From a virus, in the IMG/VR virus record IMGVR_UViG_3300007760_001418, positions 1-64,000 of that record: a stretch of 64,000 nt of DNA, one strand, 5' to 3'. Shown here piece by piece: positions 1,719-38,086 of this stretch (its first letter is position 1; every line of letters starts with the position of its first letter). Below the pieces are notes generated by a model. That model worked only from the letters and a program-made list of their open reading frames with translations. It did no database searches and was not told where the DNA came from. Made by a program: the position numbers and the translations under genes.

Positions 1719-1827
1719 GTTTATAACTAGTATTATCCTACGATAATCGTGTGACAGGAGTATAACAAAGTTTGCATTATTACTTATACAGGCATGATAT
1801 ACTGGATATACTTAGTTCACGTTAGGA

Positions 1828-2502
1828 AATAAACGTTCTTTGAAATTCTATGCGACCCCGGTTCTCGGGTCCTAAAATCCAGGTGGAATTACTGGCTCCT
1901 GGATATCAACGGAAGTTGATAGTAGAGAAAACCTCGATTGGGAAGGTGCTGTTCTTACGGCATGCCGCCCTACTAAGAGAGGGGATGAGTAAAGGGGAGT
2001 GACATCCCTGAAAATCATCCAGTGATCTAAAGTAAGAGCCCTCTTGTCACAGAGGGAGTGCTGCTGAAGGTATCCGCGGACTTGTAGATTCATCGTGGAA
2101 ACGGGATAAGGGCAACCCAGACTACTCTGAAAGGAGTTGAAAAAGTCTTGGGAAGGGGGGTTAAAATCCTCTAGAATCTGACTGTCGTTGGCAGAAGCCT
2201 CTCTGATGAAACCGGCAACGGTTTTATCGTCCCGAAAGGGGTTATGTGGACTTTCTCCCAAGGATCGGAAGCATGACGCGCAAAAGCGGGGGGAAGTGTA
2301 CAGCTTACCCAACTGAGCGCAGAATGTCAATGACAGTAGAACGTGCTGTTCCGTGGTTTTTACGAGCCAAGAACAGGGAGGAATCTTGTGAACGGTTTTA
2401 CTTGCCGGTGTGTTCACATCTAACCCCAAGAGGGGGACAGGCTCAAAAGGCTTGATGGTCATGAGAACGAGAAGCCCTGGAATGCTGGGCTTCTTTTTTT
2501 TT
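1828..2502 (+). ncRNA. Large structured non-coding RNA candidate (GOLLD/ROOL-like class)
   Basis: About 675 bases without a credible gene that fold into many stems on the plus strand. Stems seen: 1877-1883 with 1898-1904; 1904-1910 with 1915-1921 around a GGAA loop; 1982-1987 with 2003-2008; 2039-2044 with 2051-2056; 2071-2075 with 2104-2108 enclosing a CGT-GGAA-ACG hairpin; 2147-2153 with 2256-2262 at long range; 2209-2214 with 2219-2224 around GCAA; CCC-GAAA-GGG at 2231-2240; 2388-2393 with 2412-2417; 2424-2427 with 2432-2435. CGTTCT at 1834 can pair with AGAACG at 2464, closing the whole RNA just before a strong terminator. Multiple GNRA tetraloops and a closing stem are features of ornate phage RNAs such as GOLLD and ROOL. 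Membership in either class is inference. Confidence 0.7.
2471..2502 (+). terminator. Rho-independent terminator of the structured RNA
   Basis: A perfect seven-base-pair stem, GAAGCCC at 2471-2477 with GGGCTTC at 2487-2493, encloses a nine-base loop and is followed by nine T residues. It sits directly after the 3' strand of the RNA closing stem. Confidence 0.9.
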
Positions 2503-3592: not shown

Positions 3593-3713
3593 GTGTTGCT
3601 AATAACTTAACTCCATATTTATAAGCGTATGCCCATGCGTGAAAACCTTGGGCAGTTGTTTTGTTTTAGTTAAGATAGTCAGCTGCAAACACTTTACTAA
3701 AAGGAGACAACTC

Positions 3714-4583
3714 ATGGCAAAACATGGAAACTGGTTTACACGAATGATCGGTGCCGTAGGCATTGGTCAATTTGAAGAAGAAACCATCGCAAGTGCAAAA
3801 GATCGCACTGAAATTAAAGAGCTAATTAAGAATCTCTCCCCCGCGGAAGGGGTTGATGTGAAGGAATTAAAAGATGACCTTCAAAACTATTTAGACAAGA
3901 ATCTTAAAATATTAGACCAGTCAATGGCAGATATTTCAAAAAGAATTTCTGAAATGGCAGAAGAAATTGAATCAGCTGTAAAGATGGCTGATGAAGCTCT
4001 TGATTCACTTGAAGAATTAGAAGAAGATGATGCGGCCGGACCCCCTGGGCCACAAGGGCCCCAAGGGCTACAGGGTATTCAGGGTGTTCCCGGACCACAA
4101 GGAAATGACGGCGCTCAAGGACCAGCTGGTGACATTGTTGATCTGATTAACGATAATGGTGATGGGTCAATAACGCTCAGTGCTAGTAACGGTGACCAGA
4201 TCCGAATTGCTAGAATTGGTGGGACTCGCGGCCCGCGGGGTCATCAAGGTATCGACGGACCAGTAGGCCCTGAGGGACCTCAAGGTGAGCCAGGTCTCCA
4301 AGGCCCCCCAGGAAATTCCTGGAACGAACAGCGTGTTAAGATAATTGAAAACCATGTAGCTGCGTTATGGACTGAAGCTGCCGGAATAAAGTCATCAGTG
4401 GATAGTGAAATTAAAGATCTTCAAGATCGCATGGTTGAGTGTTGCCCAGAAGAACCTGAACCAAATCCAGGCTGTTGGAAACATAAGTGTTGCGACACCC
4501 CGGCCGCTGGTCAATATGCAGAATGCGATAGGCACGGCGGCAGTCCGGACGGTCATAAAACATACTGGGACCCGAACTGTTAG
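3714..4583 (+). CDS. Collagen-like fibre protein
   Basis: A 289-residue protein, started at ATG 3714 behind AAGGAG. Domains in order: an N-terminal segment with IGAVGIGQF; a long coiled coil (about residues 30-105); a Gly-X-Y collagen stretch (GPPGPQGPQGLQG onward, about 109-139); a short strand-rich spacer (VDLINDNGDGSITLSASNG); a second Gly-X-Y stretch (about 170-202); another coiled coil; and a Cys-rich tail (VECCPEE, HKCCDTP, CDRHGG). Collagen-like repeats flanked by coiled coils are typical of trimeric phage tail or head fibres. A terminator follows. The cysteine-rich tail could cross-link the trimer or bind a receptor; that part is inference. Confidence 0.85.
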   Translation: MAKHGNWFTRMIGAVGIGQFEEETIASAKDRTEIKELIKNLSPAEGVDVKELKDDLQNYLDKNLKILDQSMADISKRISEMAEEIESAVKMADEALDSLEELEEDDAAGPPGPQGPQGLQGIQGVPGPQGNDGAQGPAGDIVDLINDNGDGSITLSASNGDQIRIARIGGTRGPRGHQGIDGPVGPEGPQGEPGLQGPPGNSWNEQRVKIIENHVAALWTEAAGIKSSVDSEIKDLQDRMVECCPEEPEPNPGCWKHKCCDTPAAGQYAECDRHGGSPDGHKTYWDPNC

Positions 4584-5818: not shown

Positions 5819-6076
5819 ATGGATCCTCACCACATGGGAAGAAGCACAGTGAAGAAGGGTGACATCGTTTTTTTGGATGACTACTACTACGGTGACGTCA
5901 TAACTGGGATTGTACTTACCACCGGACGAGGCAAGCTCGAAGGGCACTATGAGATCATGACTGCCTGCCGAACGACCGAAATACCATATACTTTCTGGAC
6001 ATACCGGGAAGATCTGATGTCCATGGATGAGTGGGAAGAGTGGGGCAAGGAAGAGTACGGAGAGTTGCTGCGATGA
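5819..6076 (+). CDS. GDLV-family protein, first of the second chain
   Basis: Up to 85 residues. The start is uncertain: ATG 5819 lies only about 11 bases from the predicted transcript start, and ATG 5834 and GTG 5849 (VKKGDIVFL) are in frame; the last aligns best with the family. It shows the GDIV strand, GIVLTTG strand and TFWTYRED segment, then an acidic helix (MDEWEEWGKEEYGELL) in place of EVI. It overlaps the next start at 6073. Function unknown. Confidence 0.65.
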   Translation: MDPHHMGRSTVKKGDIVFLDDYYYGDVITGIVLTTGRGKLEGHYEIMTACRTTEIPYTFWTYREDLMSMDEWEEWGKEEYGELLR

Positions 6077-6246
6077 CTATGAAGATTGGCAACATGGTAA
6101 GACACAAGCTCTCTGAAGGTGGGTTGTTGGGTATTATTATCGGATACCACCAAGCTATCGAGTCTGCAGATCCAACCTACCTTGTTAAGTGGTCAGACGG
6201 CCGACTTAATTGGGTACTGCAACGATTGATGGAGCCAATTCAATGA
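6073..6246 (+). CDS. Small SH3-like 'GDLV' protein
   Basis: A 57-residue protein beginning MTMKIGNMVRH at ATG 6073, which overlaps the previous stop; ATG 6079 is an alternative. GIIIGYHQ and TYLVKWSDGRLNWV are the central strands. Among the members this looks most like a chromo-like or SH3 barrel (VKWSDG). It ends MEPIQ, where GGAG supplies the ribosome site for the gene at 6243. Function unknown. Confidence 0.7.
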   Translation: MTMKIGNMVRHKLSEGGLLGIIIGYHQAIESADPTYLVKWSDGRLNWVLQRLMEPIQ

Positions 6247-6443
6247 AGCCCGGTGATATGGTACAAATGGTAACCGGCCTTCCGGATTACAGGACTAACC
6301 CCCGTAATAATGGGATCGTAATAAACATCCAGCGACCGTCTGCATTTCGCAGGATTGCTATTGTTATGTCGAATACCGGCGAGATCATGAGCTGGCCACT
6401 CGACAGCCACTACGAAGTCAGGGTGATCAATGAAGCCCGGTAA
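6243..6443 (+). CDS. Small SH3-like 'GDLV' protein
   Basis: A 66-residue protein, MKPGDMVQM to RVINEAR. ATG 6243 is chosen because it overlaps the stop of the previous gene and aligns with the MKPGDMV starts of its paralogues. The strands NGIVINIQR and IAIVMSNTG surround a variable loop. The end of the gene carries the AGGGTGATCAATG that starts the following member. Function unknown. Confidence 0.75.
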   Translation: MKPGDMVQMVTGLPDYRTNPRNNGIVINIQRPSAFRRIAIVMSNTGEIMSWPLDSHYEVRVINEAR

Positions 6444-6627
6444 CCATGTCAAAGAAGGTGATCTGATTAGGGCACATGGTTGTATAGCCCTAGTACTGGA
6501 AGTGATTCCGGCTAATACTACAGAGTATCAAAAGACCCCTCGGCTTCGAATCCTAAGTGATGACGGCCGGAGTTGGGTGACTCGACTTAACTACACAAAA
6601 TGGAGTATCATCAATGAAGCCCGGTGA
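6430..6627 (+). CDS. Small SH3-like 'GDLV' protein with duplicated start segment
   Basis: A 65-residue protein, MKPGNHVKEGDLIRA to SIINEAR. It has the family MKPG twice in effect: MKPGNHV followed at once by VKEGDLI. This looks as if the standard start cassette was joined to a second copy of the first strand. IALVLEVIP and RLRILSDDG are the likely core strands. It begins 14 bases before the previous stop. Function unknown. Confidence 0.75.
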   Translation: MKPGNHVKEGDLIRAHGCIALVLEVIPANTTEYQKTPRLRILSDDGRSWVTRLNYTKWSIINEAR

Positions 6628-6814
6628 CATGGTAACATGGAAGCAAAGACCAGACCTGAGAGGTGAGGGCTTTCCCCCATATCGACGACTCGGCCTTATC
6701 CTCCAACGAGATCCCCCATACCAACAACGGGACTTCGAGGTACTCTGGCTAGAGAGTCAAAATACAACGTATCATAATGAAGATGGACTGGAGGTAGTCA
6801 GTGAAGCTCTTTAA
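6614..6814 (+). CDS. Small SH3-like 'GDLV' protein
   Basis: A 66-residue protein, MKPGDMVTW to EVVSEAL. The strands LGLILQRD and DFEVLWLES alternate with turns. The GAGGTAGTCAGTG at its end encodes EVVSE and simultaneously provides the ribosome site and GTG start of the coiled-coil gene at 6801, which shows that the coupling cassette also serves non-family genes. Function unknown. Confidence 0.75.
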   Translation: MKPGDMVTWKQRPDLRGEGFPPYRRLGLILQRDPPYQQRDFEVLWLESQNTTYHNEDGLEVVSEAL

Positions 6815-9853: not shown

Positions 9854-10936
9854 ATGGATATCAAAACCTTCAATCTCGTCGCTACCAAGCTTCCCCCGGA
9901 GATCGCGATTCTTCTTCGCGGACCGACAGGGGTCGGTAAGTCTTTCCTGGCTAACCAGGTGGCAAAGAACCTTGAGCTTCCTTTCATCGACGTCCGCGGT
10001 TCTACCATGTCCGAAGGTGATGTTGGTGGTTACCCCGATGTTGAGGGTATGAAGGAAAATGGTATCATGACCTTCTGCATGCCATCCTGGTTCATCCGGG
10101 CATGCCGAGAGCCTGTTGTCCTGATGCTGGACGAGCTTAACCGCTCCCTCCCCGGTGTCCAACAGTCCTTCTTCCAGCTGGTCCTGGACCGAGAGTTGGG
10201 TAACGACGCTAACGGCGTTCCTTACCGCCTCCACCCGCAGACCAAGGTCATCGCGGCTGTCAACCACGGCGCTGAGTACGACGTCAACGAGATGGACCCC
10301 GCATTGCTGCGGCGCTTCTGGACTGTGGACCTTGAGCCCACCTCCGAAGATTGGATCACCTGGGCTACTGCCGAAGGTCTTGACCCGGTGGTCATCGACT
10401 TCATTCGTCAGAATCCTGCCCACCTCCGAGTCGACCCTTCTACGGTTGAGCCTGGTACGGTGGCTCCGAACCCCGCTTCCTGGCACCGCCTGGCAGAGAG
10501 CCTGGTCCACATGGGCTACGCTCCGGCTGACCTCGCTGGTAAGGAAAGGGCTCCTGGCTTCTACGCTGTCGCCCTGGGCTTCGTCGGTACCGAAGCTGCT
10601 ATCTCCTTCACGACCTTCGTTGAGGGTTACGAGATGGTGGTCAGCGCCGAGGACATCCTGGACGACTACAAGGGCAACAAGGAAAAGGTTGCTGCCCTTA
10701 CGAACGATCGCCTTAACGCGGTTATCGAGAAGATCGCTAACCACTGCAAGGAAAATGAATGGAAGCTGAATCAGGCCAAGAACGTCGCGGCCTTCGCTGA
10801 AAGCCTCCCTGGTGAGATGATGGTCTCCCTTTGGAACACCATCTCGGCTACCCAGAAGTTGCCGAACATCCAGAAGATGCACAAGTTGATTGGACAGAAG
10901 ATTGTCAAGGCAGTCCAGTCCAGCCGAAACCTTTAA
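9854..10936 (+). CDS. MoxR-type AAA+ ATPase
   Basis: A 360-residue AAA+ ATPase. Walker A is GPTGVGKS (23-30), Walker B VVLMLDELNR (88-97), sensor 1 AAVNH (135-138) and an arginine pair DPALLRRFW (149-156) supplies the finger. The early position of Walker A and the short insertions fit the MoxR/AAA_5 group, which act with VWA-domain partners to remodel protein complexes. The partner here is the DUF2201-type protein at 11392, two genes downstream. The start follows an AAGGAG site and a promoter of the GTGCAA set. In phages the target of such pairs is unknown. Confidence 0.88.
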   Translation: MDIKTFNLVATKLPPEIAILLRGPTGVGKSFLANQVAKNLELPFIDVRGSTMSEGDVGGYPDVEGMKENGIMTFCMPSWFIRACREPVVLMLDELNRSLPGVQQSFFQLVLDRELGNDANGVPYRLHPQTKVIAAVNHGAEYDVNEMDPALLRRFWTVDLEPTSEDWITWATAEGLDPVVIDFIRQNPAHLRVDPSTVEPGTVAPNPASWHRLAESLVHMGYAPADLAGKERAPGFYAVALGFVGTEAAISFTTFVEGYEMVVSAEDILDDYKGNKEKVAALTNDRLNAVIEKIANHCKENEWKLNQAKNVAAFAESLPGEMMVSLWNTISATQKLPNIQKMHKLIGQKIVKAVQSSRNL

Positions 10937-10944
10937 GATTACCC

Positions 10945-10993
10945 AGGAGGGTGCAACCCTAGTAACAGGTTAAGCTGACTAGGGTTCGCCCCT
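10945..10993 (+). promoter_or_regulatory. Long intercistronic hairpin
   Basis: AACCCTAGT 10955-10963 pairs perfectly with ACTAGGGTT 10978-10986, extended by GAGGG against CCCTC with an internal mismatch. There is no T-run, so it is more likely a processing or mRNA-stability element between the MoxR gene and the gene at 11012 than a terminator. Confidence 0.6.
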
Positions 10994-11011
10994 CGCACTT
11001 AGGAGAAAAGA

Positions 11012-11287
11012 ATGGAACTCTCAAACATCCTTAATGAACTCAATGGCCTCAATGTTGATCAGCTACGTATTTTGAATAATGCTGTCTATGATCGCCTCAA
11101 GGATGCTCGCAATAGGGACTCCGCAATCAAGCGTCGCACCCTACGTGCTGGTGACCAGGTATCTTGGACCGGTCGCAATGGGTACACGGAAGGTGTCATC
11201 GTCCGGGTCAAGCGTAAGAAGGCTATCTGCGATGTGGGTAGTGGGCGTAACTGGGATGTACCCCTCAGCATGCTGACGGCAGTCTAA
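11012..11287 (+). CDS. GDLV-related protein with N-terminal helices
   Basis: A 91-residue protein. Residues 1-40 are helical (ILNELNGLNVDQLRILNNAVYDRLKDAR). Residues 43-91 are a compact barrel-like segment: TLRAGDQVSWTG, EGVIVRVKRKKAICDV and GRNWDVPLSMLTAV. This C-terminal part closely follows the pattern of the small GDLV proteins and of hypothetical KOW-like domains. It lies between the MoxR ATPase and its likely VWA partner. A good AGGAG site precedes ATG 11012. Function unknown. Confidence 0.72.
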   Translation: MELSNILNELNGLNVDQLRILNNAVYDRLKDARNRDSAIKRRTLRAGDQVSWTGRNGYTEGVIVRVKRKKAICDVGSGRNWDVPLSMLTAV

Positions 11288-11339
11288 AAAGATTAATAAT
11301 ATCAATAGGTTACATAATACTATTTATTTTAGCATACCC

Positions 11340-11368
11340 GTGCAAAAAAGCCTGGCATGTTGTATAAT
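11340..11368 (+). promoter_or_regulatory. Promoter, GTGCAA-17-TATAAT
   Basis: GTGCAA at 11340-11345 and TATAAT at 11363-11368 with a 17-base spacer. The leader to the VWA gene is very short. Confidence 0.88.
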
Positions 11369-11391
11369 GTATATGTAATCAAGGAATGGAT

Positions 11392-12783
11392 ATGGCAACA
11401 CCACAAACGACAGCTAACGACCTCCCCATCGCAGGGGACCTCGCGACCGACATCGAAGCCAACAACTTCGAGTTGGACCCACATCTCATCAGCCTCCTCT
11501 GGAGTGAGCCCTTCTTCAGCAAGATCCTTAGGGTCGTAACGAAGGTCCGCACCGACAGCATCCCTACCGCAGGGGTCCTGGCCAAGGACGGCGACATCAA
11601 GATGTGGTGGAACCCAAAGTTCCTCGCTAGCCTCACACCTGATCAGGTGAAGGGGCTTCTAAAGCATGAGTGTTACCACCTGGTGTTCGAACACACCACC
11701 ACCCGGCGACACGATCCCCACATCATTTGGAACTATGCCACTGACCTGGCCATCAACTCTCTTATCCCAGAAGAGGAGCTCCCCGAGGGTGGCCTCATTC
11801 CTGGTAAGGCCTTTAAGGAGCTTTCCGATAAGGACAAGGCGATGATGGGACCGGACGCAGTTGGCCGGTACGAGCGGGTATCCGCAAAGATTGAATCCTT
11901 CCCCAAGGAGATGGCATCCGAGTGGTACTTCGCTGAGCTTCAGGAAGTGGCCGACGATATCCAAAAGGGTAAGGAAGATGGTGAAGGCCAGCCCGGAGAC
12001 GGCGAAGGCGAAGGGGAAGGTCAAGGACCTGGTCAGCCTGGTGGACAACCTGGTAACGGACCCGGTATGCCTGGGCCGATGGACGACCATGATGGTTGGG
12101 ACCAGCTCTCTGATGAAGATCGCGAATTGCTGAAGGGCAAGGTCAAGCAGGCCGTTGAGGATGCTGTCAAGGAATGTGACCGGAATGGTCAATGGGGTTC
12201 GGTTGGCGGAGGTACCCAGAAGGTGCTCCGGGAGCTCATCTCCAAGGAGATCCCCTGGCAGACAGTGCTGAAGAAGTTCTGCGGAATGACCCGCCGGGCC
12301 AATCGCGCTACCAACATCCGACGCCTCAACCGGAAGTACCCGGCTATTCACCCTGGCTTCCAAAAGGGCTACACCTCCTCCATCGCAGTCTACATCGACC
12401 AGAGTGGTTCGGTTAGCGATGCTGAGTTGGAGCTGTTCTTCGGAGAGCTTCGGAGCCTGGCCAAGCGGACTGAGTTCACCATCTACAACTTCGACACCGA
12501 GGTTGATACGGATAGCGAACGAGTCTGGAAGAAGGGTCGTACCCCTTACGCCGGTCGGACCCGTTGCGGAGGTACTTGCTTCACTGCTCCTACGGAGCAT
12601 GCAAATAAGAATAGTGCCAAGTTCGATGGCTACCTCATCCTCACTGATGGTGAGGCTAGCGATCCTGGACCTTCTCGGTTGAAGCGAGGATGGGTCATTT
12701 GCCCCGGACAGAAGCTTTACTTTGAGGCCTCGAAGAGGGACTTCGTTATCAACATGAAGGAACCCAAGAAGGTGGCAGCATGA
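11392..12783 (+). CDS. DUF2201-type metallopeptidase-like / VWA protein
   Basis: A 463-residue protein with two domains. The N-terminal part has HECYH at 92-96, an HExxH zinc-peptidase motif within LLKHECYHLVFEH. An acidic, Gly/Pro-rich linker follows (about 195-235). The C-terminal part is a VWA-like domain with the metal site DQSGS (D336, S338, S340) and GYLILTDGEASD. This is the layout of COG3864/DUF2201 proteins, which are encoded beside MoxR-type ATPases. ATG 11392 has AAGGA at six bases; ATG 11386 abuts it and is less likely. It has its own GTGCAA promoter. Confidence 0.85.
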   Translation: MATPQTTANDLPIAGDLATDIEANNFELDPHLISLLWSEPFFSKILRVVTKVRTDSIPTAGVLAKDGDIKMWWNPKFLASLTPDQVKGLLKHECYHLVFEHTTTRRHDPHIIWNYATDLAINSLIPEEELPEGGLIPGKAFKELSDKDKAMMGPDAVGRYERVSAKIESFPKEMASEWYFAELQEVADDIQKGKEDGEGQPGDGEGEGEGQGPGQPGGQPGNGPGMPGPMDDHDGWDQLSDEDRELLKGKVKQAVEDAVKECDRNGQWGSVGGGTQKVLRELISKEIPWQTVLKKFCGMTRRANRATNIRRLNRKYPAIHPGFQKGYTSSIAVYIDQSGSVSDAELELFFGELRSLAKRTEFTIYNFDTEVDTDSERVWKKGRTPYAGRTRCGGTCFTAPTEHANKNSAKFDGYLILTDGEASDPGPSRLKRGWVICPGQKLYFEASKRDFVINMKEPKKVAA

Positions 12784-26390: not shown

Positions 26391-26415
26391 AAAACACCAT
26401 ACCCTGGTGTATAAT
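26387..26415 (+). promoter_or_regulatory. Canonical sigma-70 promoter
   Basis: TTGAAA at 26387-26392, a 17-base spacer and TATAAT at 26410-26415, with TG directly before the -10. The -35 is the standard type, unlike the GTGCAA set. It overlaps the preceding stop and drives the helicase gene. Confidence 0.78.
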
Positions 26416-26433
26416 ATATCAAGGATGTGTGAT

Positions 26434-28068
26434 ATGCAATTTGACGTGAAGTCCATCTTTCCATACGGGGAGATTAGAGATGCCCAAAGTGAAGCTATTG
26501 ATTTTGCTTTGGATGCATTTATAAATCAACAAAAGAAATTTGTTATCATCGAGGCCGGTACCGGTGTAGGGAAAAGTGCAATTGGTGTAACTTTATCAAG
26601 GTACATGGATGCATTGCCCACGCAGACGCCGGCTGGTGAGGAAGAACCATATAAACCAGGTGGTTATTTCTTAACAACTCAAAAGATCCTCCAGGAGCAA
26701 TATGTCAAGGACTTTGCTAAACCAGCTGGAAAGATGTGCTCTATTAAATCATCGTCTAACTACACATGTTCCTTTAGTGGAAAGACTAATTGTGGTGAAG
26801 GACAAAGACTTCTAAAGGTTACTGAAAAGGGGACTCCTCAATGGAGGCACTGTGTTTTCAATTGTACATACAAAAATGCCAAAGATGATTTCCTAGCATC
26901 ACCCGAAAGTATTACTAATTTCTCATATTTCTTGGCTGAGACAACATATGCTGGAAAGCTTAAGCCAAGAAACATGCTGGTGGTCGACGAGGCCCATAAT
27001 GTAGAAACAGAACTCAGTAAGTTTATTGAGGTTGCAGTTACCGAACGGTTTGCAAAGTCAATGAAACTACAGATGCCTCATATTTCAACTCAACTACAGG
27101 CCATTGACTGGATTCGAAATGTATACGCACCTAAGATACGTGCGCACGTGAAACACGTCGAGAAAATGCTTGACAAATACACAGGCCTTAGAGAAAAACT
27201 CCAGGAATTTGCCAAGCTGGCAAAGCAGTATGATCTTTTAGATAAGCATGCATGCAAGATCCAGCGATTCTTAGACGTATATGACAGTGATAATTGGGTC
27301 TTTAACATGACCCCGGCCGATGGTAGATCTGGGCGGCGACTTGAATTCAAGCCTATTGACGTTGCACCATTTGCAGATGATATGGTTTTTAAGCAAGGAA
27401 AACATGTTGTCATGATGTCAGCCACCATTTTAGATAGAGACGCATTTTGTACTTTACTTGGGATCCCACGAGAACAAGTTGCATTTATCTCCATTCCGTC
27501 TCCCTTCCCAATAGAGCATCGACCAATTATGACTTTCCCTATTGGTAAGATGAGCGCAAAAGCAATTGATGATACTTTGCCCAAGCTAGCAGAAGCTGTT
27601 AAGACAATTATGGAACAACATAAAGATGAAAAGGGGATCATCCATTGTCACACATATAAGATTGCCAATTATCTTAAGAGGCATGTAAGAAGTAAGAGAT
27701 TGTTAATTCATAATAGCGAAAATAGAGAAGCTATGTTGAATAGGCATATTAAGTCGACAACTCCAACAATATTACTTTCTCCGTCCATGACAGAAGGTAT
27801 TGATCTTTATGATGAGCTTGGCAGGTTTCAGGTAATTTGTAAAGTTCCATATCCTTATCTTGGTGACAAGCTTGTGAAGAAGCGAATGCATAAATGGAGA
27901 TGGTGGTACCCATTACAGACAGCAAAATCAATTGTGCAAGCAGTAGGGCGGAGCGTGAGAAGCATGGATGATCATGCAGTAACATACATTTTGGATAGTG
28001 ATTGGGATTTCTTTTATAATAAGAATAAGATATTCTTTCCAAAAGGATTTTCAGATTGCTTAAAGTAG
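26434..28068 (+). CDS. DinG/XPD-like superfamily 2 helicase
   Basis: A 544-residue helicase from ATG 26434 (AAGGA eight bases upstream). Walker A is EAGTGVGKS (40-48). Cysteines at MCSIKSSSNYTC, TNCGEG and HCVFNC suggest the iron-sulfur cluster of the XPD/DinG group. DEAH is at 185-188, MMSATI and SMTEGIDL follow, and QAVGRSVRS is motif VI. These enzymes unwind 5'-3' and resolve R-loops and branched DNA. It is shorter than E. coli DinG (about 716 residues). It is one of the few genes here with a canonical promoter. Confidence 0.88.
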   Translation: MQFDVKSIFPYGEIRDAQSEAIDFALDAFINQQKKFVIIEAGTGVGKSAIGVTLSRYMDALPTQTPAGEEEPYKPGGYFLTTQKILQEQYVKDFAKPAGKMCSIKSSSNYTCSFSGKTNCGEGQRLLKVTEKGTPQWRHCVFNCTYKNAKDDFLASPESITNFSYFLAETTYAGKLKPRNMLVVDEAHNVETELSKFIEVAVTERFAKSMKLQMPHISTQLQAIDWIRNVYAPKIRAHVKHVEKMLDKYTGLREKLQEFAKLAKQYDLLDKHACKIQRFLDVYDSDNWVFNMTPADGRSGRRLEFKPIDVAPFADDMVFKQGKHVVMMSATILDRDAFCTLLGIPREQVAFISIPSPFPIEHRPIMTFPIGKMSAKAIDDTLPKLAEAVKTIMEQHKDEKGIIHCHTYKIANYLKRHVRSKRLLIHNSENREAMLNRHIKSTTPTILLSPSMTEGIDLYDELGRFQVICKVPYPYLGDKLVKKRMHKWRWWYPLQTAKSIVQAVGRSVRSMDDHAVTYILDSDWDFFYNKNKIFFPKGFSDCLK

Positions 28069-30209: not shown

Positions 30210-30297
30210 TTCACGTTCGACCAATTGCTGGGTACTTTTATATTTAGATAATGATACTGGATTTACAGTACTCTGCTTAATGAGAATAGTTATAAAC

Positions 30298-31482
30298 ATG
30301 TCTGTTTTCAAAGAACATAGAACGTCCGCCGACCGATCAGCTTCTGATCGGGGTCGACATAAGCATAAAATTGAGGAAGCGATTCGTGAGGGGATATATC
30401 ACGTCATTGCTGATGAGTCTATAATTGGGAAAGACGGAACAAAAAAGGTTAGGATACCTGTTCGGGGAATTAAAGAATACCAATTTGTATACGGTGATAA
30501 TGAGCAGAGTAAAAAAGTAGGAAGCGCAACTGGCAAAAATATTAAGCGTGGTCAGCAGGTTGGTCCATCCCCCCAGAAAAAAGATAAAGGTGAGGGTAAC
30601 CAGCCAGGAAACGAAAAGGGTGTTGAATACTATGAGGTAGAGATTACCCTAGAAGAACTAGCATATTATCTATTTGAAAGCCTGGAATTGCCAGAGCTTG
30701 AAAAAAAGCAAATGAAAAAAATCATGTCTGAAAAAATGAAGAGGCATGGTTATCGTGAGTTTGGAATCCGGCCGCGGCTGGACAAAAAGAAAACACTTAA
30801 AAAGAAGCTACGTAGAAAGGCAGCTGCCAAAAGAGCCGGAACGTTTGCAGACGGTGAAGATGATCGGTTCCCTTTTCATACTGATGATCTAAAATATAAG
30901 CATATAAAAAATACAATCCAGGAAACTAGCAATGCCGTTGTATTTTTTGTAATGGACATATCTGGTTCAATGACAACACAGAAGAAATTTCTTGCAAGAA
31001 GCTTCTACTTTCTACTGTACCAATTCTTAAATTACCGATATGAAAATGTTGATCTGGTATTTGTAGCCCATGACACACAGGCATATGAGGTTACAGAAGA
31101 ACAATTTTTCAAGCGTGGCGCTGGCGGGGGCACCTTGGCCTCTTCTTCAATTGAAATGGTTTTGGATATTATTAATGAAAGATACCCAACAGACGTTTGG
31201 AACATATATACATTTCACTGTTCTGATGGGGACAACTGGCCAGAAGATATGGACAACCTTATGTTCTGCTCAGGTAAACTAAAAGAGCTAACCCAGTTAT
31301 ATTGTTATTGTGAGATTGAACCAAATGAAGAGCGCATGCGGTGGCTGATGGATGAAGGTTCAAAAATATCAAATGCATACGTCGGATTGAATGATGATAA
31401 GTTTAAGATTGTTAAAATTCAGGAGCCAGGTGATATTTGGCCGGCTTTCCAAGATCTGTTTGGGGGGAAACTGGGGTTATAA
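30298..31482 (+). CDS. yeaH: YeaH/YhbH family VWA protein (DUF444)
   Basis: A 394-residue protein from ATG 30298; ATG 30280 is an alternative. An Arg/Lys-rich N-terminal half includes ADRSASDRGRHKHKIEEAI, IPVRGIKEYQF and a GQQVGPSP region. The VWA domain has FVMDISGSM (D220, S222, S224), VFVAHDTQAYEV and a GGGTLASSSIEM segment. These are the DUF444 family's marks. In bacteria YeaH is encoded beside PrkA (YeaG) and SpoVR (YcgB) and belongs to a starvation-linked kinase system. All three occur consecutively here. The stop overlaps the next start (TAATG). Confidence 0.9.
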   Translation: MSVFKEHRTSADRSASDRGRHKHKIEEAIREGIYHVIADESIIGKDGTKKVRIPVRGIKEYQFVYGDNEQSKKVGSATGKNIKRGQQVGPSPQKKDKGEGNQPGNEKGVEYYEVEITLEELAYYLFESLELPELEKKQMKKIMSEKMKRHGYREFGIRPRLDKKKTLKKKLRRKAAAKRAGTFADGEDDRFPFHTDDLKYKHIKNTIQETSNAVVFFVMDISGSMTTQKKFLARSFYFLLYQFLNYRYENVDLVFVAHDTQAYEVTEEQFFKRGAGGGTLASSSIEMVLDIINERYPTDVWNIYTFHCSDGDNWPEDMDNLMFCSGKLKELTQLYCYCEIEPNEERMRWLMDEGSKISNAYVGLNDDKFKIVKIQEPGDIWPAFQDLFGGKLGL

Positions 31483-32786
31483 TGTCTGATTGGAACTTTG
31501 ATTTATTAGAAGAGTGGGACAAGAAAATACATGACCTTGCATTGAGCTTTGGCCTAGACTGGTATCCTATTATCTACGAGGTTTGCGACTACTATCAGAT
31601 GATAGGTCATATGTCATATCATGGGTTGCCCAGTCATTATTGCCATTGGTCATTTGGAAAGTCATTTGAAAGAACACACCAGCTTTATCAGGCAGGGATG
31701 GAAGGGTTACCTTATGAGCTAATCATTAACTCTGATCCGTCTATCGCATATCTGATGAAAGAAAATCCGGCATATATGCAAATTCTTATTATGTGCCACT
31801 GTGTTGGGCACTCTGATTTCTTTAAGAATAATAAGACATTTGAACATACTCGTCCAGAGACGACATGTACCAGGTTTCGAAATGCTAGAAAAAGAATTCA
31901 AGGATATATTGAAGATCCAAGTATAGGTGTCGACAAGGTTGAAAGAATCTTAGATGCATCACATGCAATAAAGTACCAGATCGACCGAAACTTGAAAAAA
32001 CGACCATCCCATAAAGATCTAAAAGAAGAATATACTCGCCGGGTTAAAGAGGATGATCGGTATGAAAATTTTGATATTGAAAAAATCCCTTTAGAGCCAG
32101 ACTATAATATACTTGGATTTATTATTGAGCACTCTAAAAGCCTCAAGGACTGGGAGAGGGACATTGTTGAAATCGTGCATAATGAATCTTTGTATTTTCT
32201 GCCACAGATTAAATCAAAGATTATGAATGAGGGATGGGCATCATTCTGGCACTATAGATTAATGCACGAGTTGGACCTTCCACAAGAATACCATATACCA
32301 TTCATTAAAAGTCATAACCAGGTCATCAGGCCTCATATAGGGTCTCTAAACCCATACCATGTGGGGTTCTATATGTTCCAGAAGATTGAAGAGAGGTTTG
32401 GGCTTGATCAATGTTTCCTTGCGAGGGAAATAGGTCATGACGAGTCGTTTCTACGGGAATACTTAACAGAAGAGGATTGCAGAGAGCTTAATTTGTTTTC
32501 ATATTCAAAGAAGAAAAGAGAAATTTCTACAATTGATGAAATATCCGATGGCGAGGGGTGGAAAAAAATCAAGAATGACCTTATCAAAAATGTAGGTGCT
32601 GGTACAATTCCCAAGATATATGTAGAATCTATAGAGGATGGAAACGTGTTAATACTGCAACATGAACATGATGGAAGAGATCTTGAACTAAATTATGCTG
32701 ATGAGGTTGTAAAACACGTTGGCACTTTGTGGGGAGACGTCGTAAAACTTCTTACTGTAGTAGAGGAAGAACCGTGGGAAATTTGA
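31482..32786 (+). CDS. spoVR: SpoVR/YcgB family protein
   Basis: A 434-residue protein from ATG 31482, overlapping the YeaH stop. MSDWNFDLLEEWDKKIHDLA, LDWYPIIYEVCDY, GLPSHYCHWSFGKSFE and MNEGWASFWHYRLMHEL are SpoVR-family signatures. The family is named for a role in Bacillus spore cortex formation; in non-sporulating bacteria it travels with PrkA and YeaH, and its molecular activity is unknown. Length is close to the usual 450-510. Its position between yeaH and prkA keeps the three genes together. Confidence 0.93.
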   Translation: MSDWNFDLLEEWDKKIHDLALSFGLDWYPIIYEVCDYYQMIGHMSYHGLPSHYCHWSFGKSFERTHQLYQAGMEGLPYELIINSDPSIAYLMKENPAYMQILIMCHCVGHSDFFKNNKTFEHTRPETTCTRFRNARKRIQGYIEDPSIGVDKVERILDASHAIKYQIDRNLKKRPSHKDLKEEYTRRVKEDDRYENFDIEKIPLEPDYNILGFIIEHSKSLKDWERDIVEIVHNESLYFLPQIKSKIMNEGWASFWHYRLMHELDLPQEYHIPFIKSHNQVIRPHIGSLNPYHVGFYMFQKIEERFGLDQCFLAREIGHDESFLREYLTEEDCRELNLFSYSKKKREISTIDEISDGEGWKKIKNDLIKNVGAGTIPKIYVESIEDGNVLILQHEHDGRDLELNYADEVVKHVGTLWGDVVKLLTVVEEEPWEI

Positions 32787-32828
32787 TGACAACGATATTT
32801 ATTAGTACCCAATGTAGGGAGATTTGCA

Positions 32829-34757
32829 ATGACAAGTAAGAAAAAATTCTTAGACTTGATCCAAAAGCAGCGTACAAAGCCAAAACCAGAAAAGTTTCAA
32901 GGTACTTTTCTAGAATATCTTGATATTGTTAGTAAGGATCCAGATGTTACTAAGTTAGCACATAAGAGATTATATGATACAATTCTTGATAGTGGCACAG
33001 GCCAAATGTCAGATAGCGAAAGAAATCATAAGTTGTTTGATGGTGAGAAGATCACAGTATATGATTATTTTGATGATGAGTTCTTTGGTGTAGAAAGAAT
33101 AATTGCAAAGATCATGAGGTTTTTGAAATCTGCATCCCTTAGGGGCGAAGAGAGTCGACAGATCCTATTACTAATGGGCCCTGTTGGCGCAGGAAAATCC
33201 GCACTTACAGAACATATTAAAAAGGCCCTGGAGGGTAAAACATATTACTGTCTTGATGGTGACCCTCAGGGGGGTGAACCTCTCCACCTTATTCCTCGTT
33301 CATTAAGAAAAGAATTCGAAAAAATTCTAGGTACAAAAATTGAGGGTGACCTTAGTCCTGTGGCTAGACATAGATTGCTTGAAGAGTATGAGGGAACATA
33401 TGAAAATTTTCCTGTCATTGAGAAAACGTTTTCGCAGCGGGCCCGTCGAGGAGTAGCATCTGTTCCACCAATGGATGCCAATAGCCAGGACGTCTCAGTA
33501 CTAATCGGGTCTGAAGATATTTCTAAATTAGATCTTTATCCGGAAGATGACCCTAGGGTATTATCATTGAATGGTGCATTTAACGTTGGTAACCGCGGTA
33601 TCGTGGAACTAATTGAGGTTTTCAAAAATGAAATTGAATTCCTTCACACAGTTATTACAGCAACACAGGAAAAGCGGATTCCGTCCCCTGGTAAAAATGC
33701 AATGATTTACTTTGATGGTGTTATTATTGCCCACTGTAATGAGGCTGAGTGGAATAGGTTTCGAGCAGAACATACTAACGAGGCAATCCTTGATCGTGTC
33801 GTGAAGATCAATGTTCCTTACGTCCTTGAGCTCAATAAAGAAATGATGATCTATGAAAAGATACTATCTCGGTCAGACTTTGACGCACATATCGCGCCGC
33901 ATACGATAAAGATAGCATCAATGTTTTCAGTCATGTCCCGTCTTAAGGCATCACAAAAATGTGATCTTCTTACAAAGATGAAAATCTATAATGGTGAAGA
34001 TGTAATTGAAAAGGGCCGAGTTAAGAAAATTGATATCCAAGACCTTCGTGAGGAATCAAATAAAGAAGGTATGGAAGGAATATCCACCAGATTTATTATG
34101 AAGTCAATTGATAATGCATTATCTGATGCTGGTGAAAAGAATATGATAACGCCTGTCTCAGTTATGAAAACTCTAACGAAACAAACAAAAGAACAGATTA
34201 TTAAAGAAGATGAACGGGAACAGTATCTGGAAATTATGCAAGGTGTCCGGGAAGAATACCTTAAGATTCTTGAGACAGAAATTGCAAAAGCTTTTGTTAC
34301 TGCTTATGAAGAGCAAGCACAGGCATTATTTGATACATACCTCGACAATGCAGAAGCATTTACAACTAGACAAAAACTAAAAGATCGAATCACCTCTGAA
34401 GAACGTGAGCCTGATGAAGAGTTTATGAGATCTATTGAAGAACAAATTGGCATCATCGGTTCTAGTAGGGATGGATTCCGAAGTGACGTTACTGCTTATA
34501 TGTTTGCTAAGATGCGGCGGAAAGAAACTGTCGACTTTAGAAGTTATGAGCCGCTCAAGGAAGCTATTGAGAGTTACTTGATCTCTAGTGTCAAGGACAT
34601 GGCCAGAATCGTAACAAAATCACAGGTTCGAGATGATGATCAGCAGGAAAAATATTCTGATATGGTTCAGGTCATGATCGATGAGTATGGATATACAGCT
34701 ACCTCTGCAGAAGAAGTACTTCGGTATGCATCCAATAATCTATGGCGTGATGGATAA
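32829..34757 (+). CDS. prkA: PrkA/YeaG-type serine protein kinase with AAA+ domain
   Basis: A 642-residue protein, the normal length of the family (about 640). Walker A GPVGAGKS lies at 117-124, followed by YYCLDGDPQGGEPLHLIP and EEYEGTYENFPVIEK. GVASVPPMDANSQD, SLNGAFNVGNRGIVE, YFDGVIIAHCNEAEW and ILDRVVKINVPYVL are PrkA signatures. The C-terminal part is the helical kinase-like region. Bacterial PrkA is activated under nitrogen or carbon starvation. The Walker A site is intact, so ATP use is expected. It is third in the yeaH-spoVR-prkA operon. Confidence 0.93.
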   Translation: MTSKKKFLDLIQKQRTKPKPEKFQGTFLEYLDIVSKDPDVTKLAHKRLYDTILDSGTGQMSDSERNHKLFDGEKITVYDYFDDEFFGVERIIAKIMRFLKSASLRGEESRQILLLMGPVGAGKSALTEHIKKALEGKTYYCLDGDPQGGEPLHLIPRSLRKEFEKILGTKIEGDLSPVARHRLLEEYEGTYENFPVIEKTFSQRARRGVASVPPMDANSQDVSVLIGSEDISKLDLYPEDDPRVLSLNGAFNVGNRGIVELIEVFKNEIEFLHTVITATQEKRIPSPGKNAMIYFDGVIIAHCNEAEWNRFRAEHTNEAILDRVVKINVPYVLELNKEMMIYEKILSRSDFDAHIAPHTIKIASMFSVMSRLKASQKCDLLTKMKIYNGEDVIEKGRVKKIDIQDLREESNKEGMEGISTRFIMKSIDNALSDAGEKNMITPVSVMKTLTKQTKEQIIKEDEREQYLEIMQGVREEYLKILETEIAKAFVTAYEEQAQALFDTYLDNAEAFTTRQKLKDRITSEEREPDEEFMRSIEEQIGIIGSSRDGFRSDVTAYMFAKMRRKETVDFRSYEPLKEAIESYLISSVKDMARIVTKSQVRDDDQQEKYSDMVQVMIDEYGYTATSAEEVLRYASNNLWRDG

Positions 34758-37721: not shown

Positions 37722-38086
37722 GGGGGCGAAACGGTCTCGACGGGGTGGCAAAGGGTGAAAGTGCAAGTAACCAACGGTAACACATGGTTTGATAGTGTTG
37801 CAAACTATAATTGCTAACGATAACGTTGCATACGAATACGCACTAGCTGCGTAAACGCGGGGTTGCTGATAGACCTTGTTACCCAACATCAGATAAGCGG
37901 CTTGGCTCCGCCGAAATAAACTAGGTCAAAAATGGTTACCCTATTTGTAATAGGTGGGTTCTGATGCTTAATAGGAATGGTGGTTTTTTGAGATACTTTG
38001 TCAGTTTAGAGAAACTGTCTAAACTTGTGAACGACTTAAATTTGGACCTATTTCGGACGCGGGTTCGACTCCCGCCGCCTCCACCA
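37722..38086 (+). ncRNA. ssrA: Transfer-messenger RNA (tmRNA)
   Basis: A complete one-piece tmRNA of 365 bases. The 5' GGGGGCG pairs with CGCCTCC before the encoded ACCA end, the T arm is GCGGG-TTCGACT-CCCGC, and the 5' tRNA-like part reads GAAACGGTCTCGACGGGG. The tag frame starts at GCT 37813 and ends at TAA 37852-37854, giving ANDNVAYEYALAA, with the ALAA end recognised by ClpXP-type proteases. tmRNA rescues stalled ribosomes with SmpB, which is not seen in this window. It lies 27 bases after the Hc1-like gene and 13 before the FtsZ-like gene. Confidence 0.97.

Follow-up and report, generated by a model that had tools for sequence, protein, structure and literature searches.

To our knowledge, few natural RNAs longer than 500 nt with elaborate conserved folds have been found outside ribosomes, introns, and RNase P. 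The closest described systems carried by phages are ROOL, whose env-120 representative is 659 nt long, and GOLLD, whose expression rises during lysis; the cages formed by these RNAs have been solved, and their functions are unknown (PMC12286853). Another large non-coding phage RNA is the orf-less ~800-nt transcript of phage ICP1, which is the most abundant ICP1 transcript and belongs to no Rfam family (PMC7567579).

The window analyzed in this study, a stretch of 64,000 nucleotides from an 87,820-base IMG/VR virus record, encodes on its plus strand a large structured non-coding RNA of ~665 bases (1834-2499). It exceeds 500 nt, has a conserved complex pseudoknotted structure, and codes for no protein, as expected of a large ornate phage RNA. 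It resembles ROOL in its size of about 600-660 nt, its location in phages or prophages, often near tRNA islands, its pseudoknots, and the absence of a known protein partner (PMC12286853), but differs in having no match to the ROOL model, in the boxA element at the 5' end of every copy, and in its occurrence in environmental phages that have not been cultivated, including several of jumbo size. GOLLD is likewise a giant phage-encoded RNA found near tRNAs and conserved in its 3' region (PMC12286853), whereas the present RNA is shorter, does not match the GOLLD model, and has a fold conserved across the 5', central, and 3' domains. With OLE it shares a length of about 600 nt, an elaborate fold, and many highly conserved bases, again without an Rfam match. 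The ICP1 transcript differs from the family in that neither of the models of the 3' domain (R1) and the central domain (R2) matches it, no boxA is seen by eye at its start, and the phage has no tRNAs; by both models, it was rejected as a family member. The orf-less region itself (NC_015157 80097-81107, minus strand; 98-1108 of our locus L055) matches no Rfam family above the cut-off and may be another unclassified large phage RNA.

When the whole window was searched with the 4227 models of the Rfam library, including ROOL, GOLLD, OLE, and RNase P, a tRNA and a tmRNA were the sole matches to reach gathering scores. In positions 1700-2650, searched permissively with E up to 10, there were two meaningless matches, one falling on the terminator hairpin, and six homologous loci searched with E up to 5 gave only sub-threshold matches at or past the terminal hairpin. 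The weak matches to rimP, suhB, and SorY all fall at this hairpin or beyond it, far below the cut-offs. No self-splicing intron, RNase P, or tmRNA model of Rfam matches over the RNA, the tmRNA of the window lying elsewhere (37722-38086), and the group II intron model RF01998 found nothing over its cut-off in 18 related contigs. Even with E allowed up to 10, the models to which the initial annotation had pointed (GOLLD, ROOL, OLE, and RNase P) produced no meaningful match. A collection of 5.39 million open-access papers, searched with general terms and lacking most subscription papers and preprints, contained no description of this RNA family.

On sequence evidence, the best reading is that the RNA would represent a new class, analogous but unrelated to ROOL and GOLLD, within the loose kind of large ornate phage RNAs and set apart by its non-homology and its universal boxA. 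More fully, we propose, with a probability of roughly 0.6, that tailed phages encode it as a large structured RNA that stands on its own and acts in trans, belonging to a new RNA class and expressed via host boxA antitermination.

Covariation and fold of the RNA

The initial annotation had placed a structured RNA of ~675 bases at 1828-2502. This RNA is real, as judged by its folding energy and covariation, and its limits were refined to 1834-2494, with a U-run continuing to about 2502. The fold energy of the segment is -244.3 kcal/mol, compared to -212.0 (sd 4.8) in dinucleotide shuffles (z -6.7), whereas z-scores lie between -2.4 and +1.6 for 14 other 666-base stretches of the window. In the family, whose sizes range from 653 to 685 nt, the 13 aligned members have z-scores from -1.4 to -5.8. 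On one side of the segment lies a small gene on the minus strand (1428-1718), and on the other a small gene for a membrane protein (2528-2770). The promoter candidate listed in Table 1 is weak, since the consensus scan found 7 promoter-like sites against 3.8 expected in shuffles.

The structure was derived from an alignment (A2) of 13 distinct full sequences, the window and 12 homologues, aligned by sequence rather than structure; only one of the near-identical L043 and L047 was included. RNAalifold predicted 162 pairs, 73 of them with a compensatory double change, and when every pair of columns was independently screened for stacks of covarying pairs, the same helices were recovered together with non-nested ones. 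The combined structure contains 169 pairs in 33 helices, well over the minimum of ten stems initially suggested, and 28 helices have at least one two-sided change. In total, 98.1% of cells are paired and 81 pairs have changes on both sides. There are 265 double-changed cells, compared to 91 in shuffles; the covariation score was reached by none of 500 shuffles, and when one strand was shifted by one to three columns, pairing fell to 36-46%. Significance of individual pairs was assessed by an approximate, home-made null in which substitutions are simulated on the tree with branch counts and column rates kept. Under this tree-preserving null, 23 pairs of the structure are significant (E<0.05). 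Of the 20 strongest pairs of the whole alignment, 12 lie inside the structure, and no significant pair lies outside it. Three RNAalifold pairings were dropped: columns 291-296/338-343 conflict with the CCAAG/CUUGG hairpin of the family, columns 4-8/580-584 have no covariation, and columns 374-376/541-543 compete with a better-supported pseudoknot. Homologues were thus found, with numerous compensatory changes in their stems, the outcome on which the initial annotation had made its proposal depend. We regard it as confirmed that this segment encodes a large non-coding RNA.

Table 1. Features of the RNA and its upstream region (window coordinates)
Feature	Position	Strand	Evidence or remark
Whole large structured non-coding RNA	1834-2499	+	Folding, covariation, coding check
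Weak sigma-70-like promoter, TATACA-16-TATACT	1785-1812	+	Consensus scan only; start would be ~1819
boxA element GTTCTTTGAAA	1835-1845	+	GNTCTTTRAMA in all copies; upstream flanks diverge
Hairpin GACCC/GGGTC, conserved loop GUUCUC	1854-1871	+	Helix 1; 95.4% of cells paired
Hairpin TCCAGGTGG/CTCCTGGA	1878-1903	+	Helix 2; two-sided changes in 8 of 8 pairs, five with E<0.05
Nested-helix domain, 1932-1935/1979-1982, 1938-1942/1968-1972, 1948-1952/1957-1961	1932-1982	+	Helices 4-7
Hairpin 1983-1988/2015-2020 with 1994-1998/2005-2009	1983-2020	+	Helices 8-10; loop 1999-2004 kisses
Hairpin 2025-2028/2068-2071, 2032-2034/2062-2064, 2039-2044/2051-2056	2025-2071	+	Helices 10-13; four pairs with E<0.05
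Helix 2073-2079/2093-2099, loop segment 2085-2091 in pseudoknot	2073-2099	+	Helices 14-15; 100% of cells paired
Hairpin CCCAGAC/GUCUUGGG, 2116-2122/2145-2152	2116-2152	+	Folds and alignments
Hairpin 2155-2159/2168-2172	2155-2172	+	Helix 16
Seven-pair pseudoknot, 3' arm (partner 2085-2091)	2174-2180	+	Helix 15
Central domain, closed by 2181-2187/2331-2337 and 2189-2193/2325-2329	2181-2337	+	Helices 17-26; model R2
Hairpin CTGTTC..GAACAG, 2346-2358/2365-2376	2346-2376	+	Helix 27; one pair significant
3' domain, closed by 2385-2391/2459-2465	2385-2465	+	Helices 28, 29, 31-33; model R1
Segment GUGUUC, pairing with terminal hairpin loop 2480-2485	2410-2415	+	Helix 30
Terminal hairpin AGAAGCCC/GGGCUUCU, 2470-2477/2487-2494, then U-run	2470-2502	+	Loop GAAUGC docks on 2410-2415

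In the 5' half, helices 6, 8, and 9 each contain one significant pair under the tree-preserving null. The loops 1999-2004 and 2045-2050 kiss as GUGACA/UGUCAC, replaced in homologues by GUGGAA/UUCCGC and GUGGUA/UACCAC. A further loop pairing, 1953-1956/1975-1978, is possible; being invariant, it has no support from covariation. All seven pairs of the pseudoknot 2085-2091/2174-2180 are formed in 100% of cells, and three of them show double changes. Together with the outer closing helix of the central domain (2181-2187/2331-2337), it makes two real long-range helices of seven base pairs, where one had been reported initially. The GAAA-capped hairpin 2124-2137 is an optional insert in the hairpin 2116-2152, absent from five of the 13 aligned sequences (L044, L045, L046, L048, and L049).

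The central domain comprises two conserved GNRA hairpins (loops 2215-2218 and 2234-2237), the hairpin 2241-2277, and the branch 2278-2320; its helices 18, 19, 21, and 25 hold significant pairs. The GNRA loops of the segment have fared unevenly. The loops at 2215-2218 (GCAA or GAAA) and 2234-2237 (GAAA) are kept in 13 of 13 sequences, whereas GAAA at 2129-2132 only caps the optional hairpin. GGAA at 1911-1914 is present in the window, but homologues have GAAA, UUCG, or something else at this place, and the second GGAA loop noted initially (near 2096) exists in the window's own fold but falls inside the conserved helix 2073-2079/2093-2099.

Inside the 3' domain are the helices 2393-2397/2403-2407, 2417-2419/2455-2457, 2424-2426/2433-2435, and 2438-2443/2449-2454, and significant pairs are found in helices 28 and 31. 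Helix 30, by which the terminal hairpin loop docks on an internal segment, was missed by the initial annotation; it is paired in 100% of cells, with two-sided changes in three pairs, and two pairs have E<0.05. The docking pair is GUGUUC/GAAUGC in one group of sequences and GUGCUU/AAGUGC or GUGCUU/AGGUGC in another. The terminal hairpin, correctly recognized as a strong terminator, is also part of the fold. In the window's group it is followed by a U-run and thus forms a terminator, whereas more distant homologues lack the U-run but retain the hairpin, with another stem sequence, and its loop; the hairpin is therefore more than a terminator. The predicted fold is therefore one that holds a kissing loop, a seven-pair pseudoknot, and a 3' hairpin loop docked on an internal segment.

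Conservation at the level of single bases brings in the reading that the RNA is a large trans-acting ribozyme, the invariant unpaired stretches forming its active site. The homologues are 73-85% identical to the window overall, and despite this the stretches UAGAGAAAAC, GAAGUGUACAGCU, and AAGAACAGGGAG are invariant or nearly so. However, structural RNAs keep such stretches too, no substrate is in sight, and the Rfam searches matched neither RNase P nor group I or group II introns nor another family of ribozymes. We consider an RNA enzyme rather unlikely.

The boxA element and expression of the RNA

The boxA element of bacterial transcripts binds NusB-S10 and nucleates an antitermination complex. 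An element of this type, overlooked in the initial annotation, lies at the 5' end of the RNA: the pattern GNTCTTTRAMA is present in 15 of 15 copies, about 8-15 bases ahead of the first helix, and farther upstream the sequences have diverged. In six copies it is exactly GTTCTTTAACA, fitting the γ-proteobacterial consensus GYTCTTTAANA (PMC5725501), the hosts being only weakly assigned. In Flavobacteriales, the other main form, GTTCTTTGAAA, is found 80-140 bp ahead of the 16S rRNA, as the same GTTCTTTGAA element, and once more after 16S. Near the 5' end, the RNA thus carries either the consensus or a host rRNA-leader variant of it. The 5' arm of the closing stem initially proposed (1834-1843/2459-2470) is this same boxA. 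The stem does pair in the window, but it is unpaired in most homologues (L029, L030, L037, L045, and others), so it was not accepted as a conserved helix. Weak pairing of the boxA stretch with the 3' end can also occur in some members, which speaks against the expression model proposed below.

The same boxA starts other long untranslated RNAs, namely those of rRNA operons and CRISPR arrays (PMC5725501, PMC7862264), and precursor RNA rose about tenfold when it was placed in front of a long CRISPR array (PMC7862264). Here, in contrast, it heads an ornate phage RNA, for which no earlier report was found in the open-access literature; nor did the literature examined contain a report of boxA for ROOL or GOLLD. 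By inference from sequence and position, host RNA polymerase would probably start at the RNA's own promoter or read in from an upstream tRNA gene, and the boxA of the new transcript would probably recruit NusB-S10 with the host antitermination complex and suppress termination. A long untranslated RNA could thus be made in quantity without Rho termination, like rRNA. RNases probably trim the tRNA side of the transcript, and the RNA would then fold into a compact, nuclease-resistant particle, stable and acting in trans. The universal boxA is a concrete, testable clue to the expression of large ornate RNAs.

The element could also be taken as a decoy, titrating host NusB-S10 (or ribosomal proteins) and so weakening host rRNA synthesis. 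An rRNA-type boxA is indeed present in all copies, and an abundant RNA could compete for its ligands. But one short boxA leaves 640 further conserved, pseudoknotted bases unexplained, and its place at the 5' end is where an antitermination site must be. A decoy is improbable, and we retain boxA-driven expression of a trans-acting RNA as the preferred reading.

Relation to ROOL and GOLLD

The likeness to ROOL and GOLLD proposed in the initial annotation extends to size range, phage context, tRNA neighborhood, and pseudoknotted ornament (PMC12286853), but not to homology. These shared traits would also be expected of a very divergent ROOL or GOLLD RNA, invisible to the Rfam models. Neither the ROOL model (RF03087) nor the GOLLD model (RF02032) matched the segment (E up to 10) or any of the six homologous loci (E up to 5), the comparison being made by models. 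In 18 related contigs, searched without a positive control, there was no match to ROOL at E up to 1 and none to GOLLD, and the segment and six-locus searches therefore carry the weight. A hidden member of either family is accordingly an improbable explanation, about as much so as the decoy or slightly more.

Under the preferred reading of a new class, the role of the folded RNA can be suggested by analogy with ROOL and GOLLD: speculatively, it might be a homo-oligomeric particle or a ribosome-linked scaffold. Like ROOL and GOLLD, it might be abundant in the infected cell as a structural scaffold or a complex that assembles by itself, and it is perhaps tied to the translation apparatus, to which these phages also contribute tRNAs and tmRNA. 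More specifically, we tentatively suggest a further unrelated class of large ornate phage RNA whose molecules would assemble by themselves into a symmetric particle and would reach rRNA-like amounts via a boxA borrowed from the host; we hold this to be possible but doubtful. If it is true, such RNA particles arose repeatedly in large phages. A further, unrelated family provides an independent case to compare with ROOL and GOLLD, and with its optional module, its docking 3' hairpin, and its defined kissing loop, it lends itself to study by cryo-EM and to RNA structure prediction.

Distribution and genomic neighborhood

At least 14 other homologous loci were identified in uncultivated viral contigs, 13 of them full-length (L031, L029, L030, L054, L037, L042, L043, L047, L044, L048, L049, L045, and L046) and one, L032, ending at the contig end. 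The first came from a search of related viral contigs, where a contig of 101 kb carries a copy with 84% identity; further homologues were found by using short conserved stretches as patterns against IMG/VR and GTDB genomes. The pattern GGGATAAGGGCAACCCAGAC gave no match because it spans a variable hairpin, and the pattern matches L050, L051, and L053 were rejected as chance, the region being dissimilar and without a covariance-model match. The RNA is encoded in phages, as indicated by the IMG/VR origin of the contigs and by large-terminase profile matches (E<1e-49) in five of them. RNA-bearing contigs reach 204 kb (L049), 236 kb (L032), and 293 kb (L044), so that some of the carriers are jumbo phages. 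Host labels are weak: L031 (PBIO01000025) is binned with a Halobacteriovorax MAG and L054 with a Flavobacteriales MAG.

In every contig with the full RNA, the central-domain covariance model R2 finds exactly one significant copy; in 12 relatives sharing the phage helicase, it finds none. Among the relatives connected to the window via this helicase (26407-28068), which were examined in part, only L012 has the RNA and 13 others do not. No relative was found by blastn of four members against 50,697 phage isolate records or of one member against 72,556 plasmids; Pseudomonas phage PSA11, with a single 32-base match (E 0.8), was discarded.

The family often lies near tRNA genes, whereas the window's own tRNA is 22.8 kb away. 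In eight of the 14 full-length loci a tRNA gene occurs within 1.2 kb of the RNA, and in five a same-strand tRNA gene ends 5-70 bases upstream: tRNA-Lys in L049, tRNA-Ser in L045, L046, and L048, and tRNA-Asn in L037. The nearby stretches scanned in the window, L031, and the L042/L043/L047 group contain no tRNA gene. The tRNA-Lys of L049 (2952-3034) has an encoded CCA end five bases ahead of the RNA, which suggests that tRNA 3'-end trimming may also create the RNA 5' end in this phage. Genes for phage-borne tmRNAs (tags ANDNVAYEYALAA and ANNNYYFEESRLAA) were observed in two RNA-carrying contigs, at 37722-38086 of the window and at 346-766 of L049.

No neighboring gene family is common to more than five of the 14 loci. 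Thus the RNA moves as its own unit and most probably acts in trans. Regulation of the next gene in cis, by a leader or attenuator, would be suggested by the window's small membrane-protein gene, which begins 17-29 bases past the hairpin and has a similar counterpart in L031; however, the downstream gene is different in nearly all loci, a strong terminator stands in between, and 660 bases are far above the usual leader size, making this explanation very improbable. A protein-coding segment or a chance fold is already refuted, for the only long open frame in a six-frame check (217 codons, minus strand, 1872-2525) has no Pfam match and is interrupted in all 12 aligned homologues, by 2-6 stop codons as well as gaps, in agreement with the initial view that no plausible protein is encoded, and the covariation is overwhelming.

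Several other genes of the window were noted. Two runs of small overlapping same-strand ORFs (5-1001 and 6031-6814) have M(K/Q)xGDxV-like starts, for instance, MKVGDLVRML, MKIGDLVVRA, and MKPGDMVTWK, and resemble tandem paralogs, perhaps of an SH3-like small protein. A collagen-like protein with a cysteine-rich C-terminus is encoded at 3639-4583. At 9854-12783, an ATPase gene adjoins one for a DUF2201 VWA/metallopeptidase-like protein, the latter labeled "HNH endonuclease" in PHROGs (phrog_1314), a label unsupported by Pfam. Finally, adjoining genes for DUF444 (YeaH-like), SpoVR, and PrkA kinase proteins at 30280-34757 constitute a bacterial stress operon trio on a phage contig.
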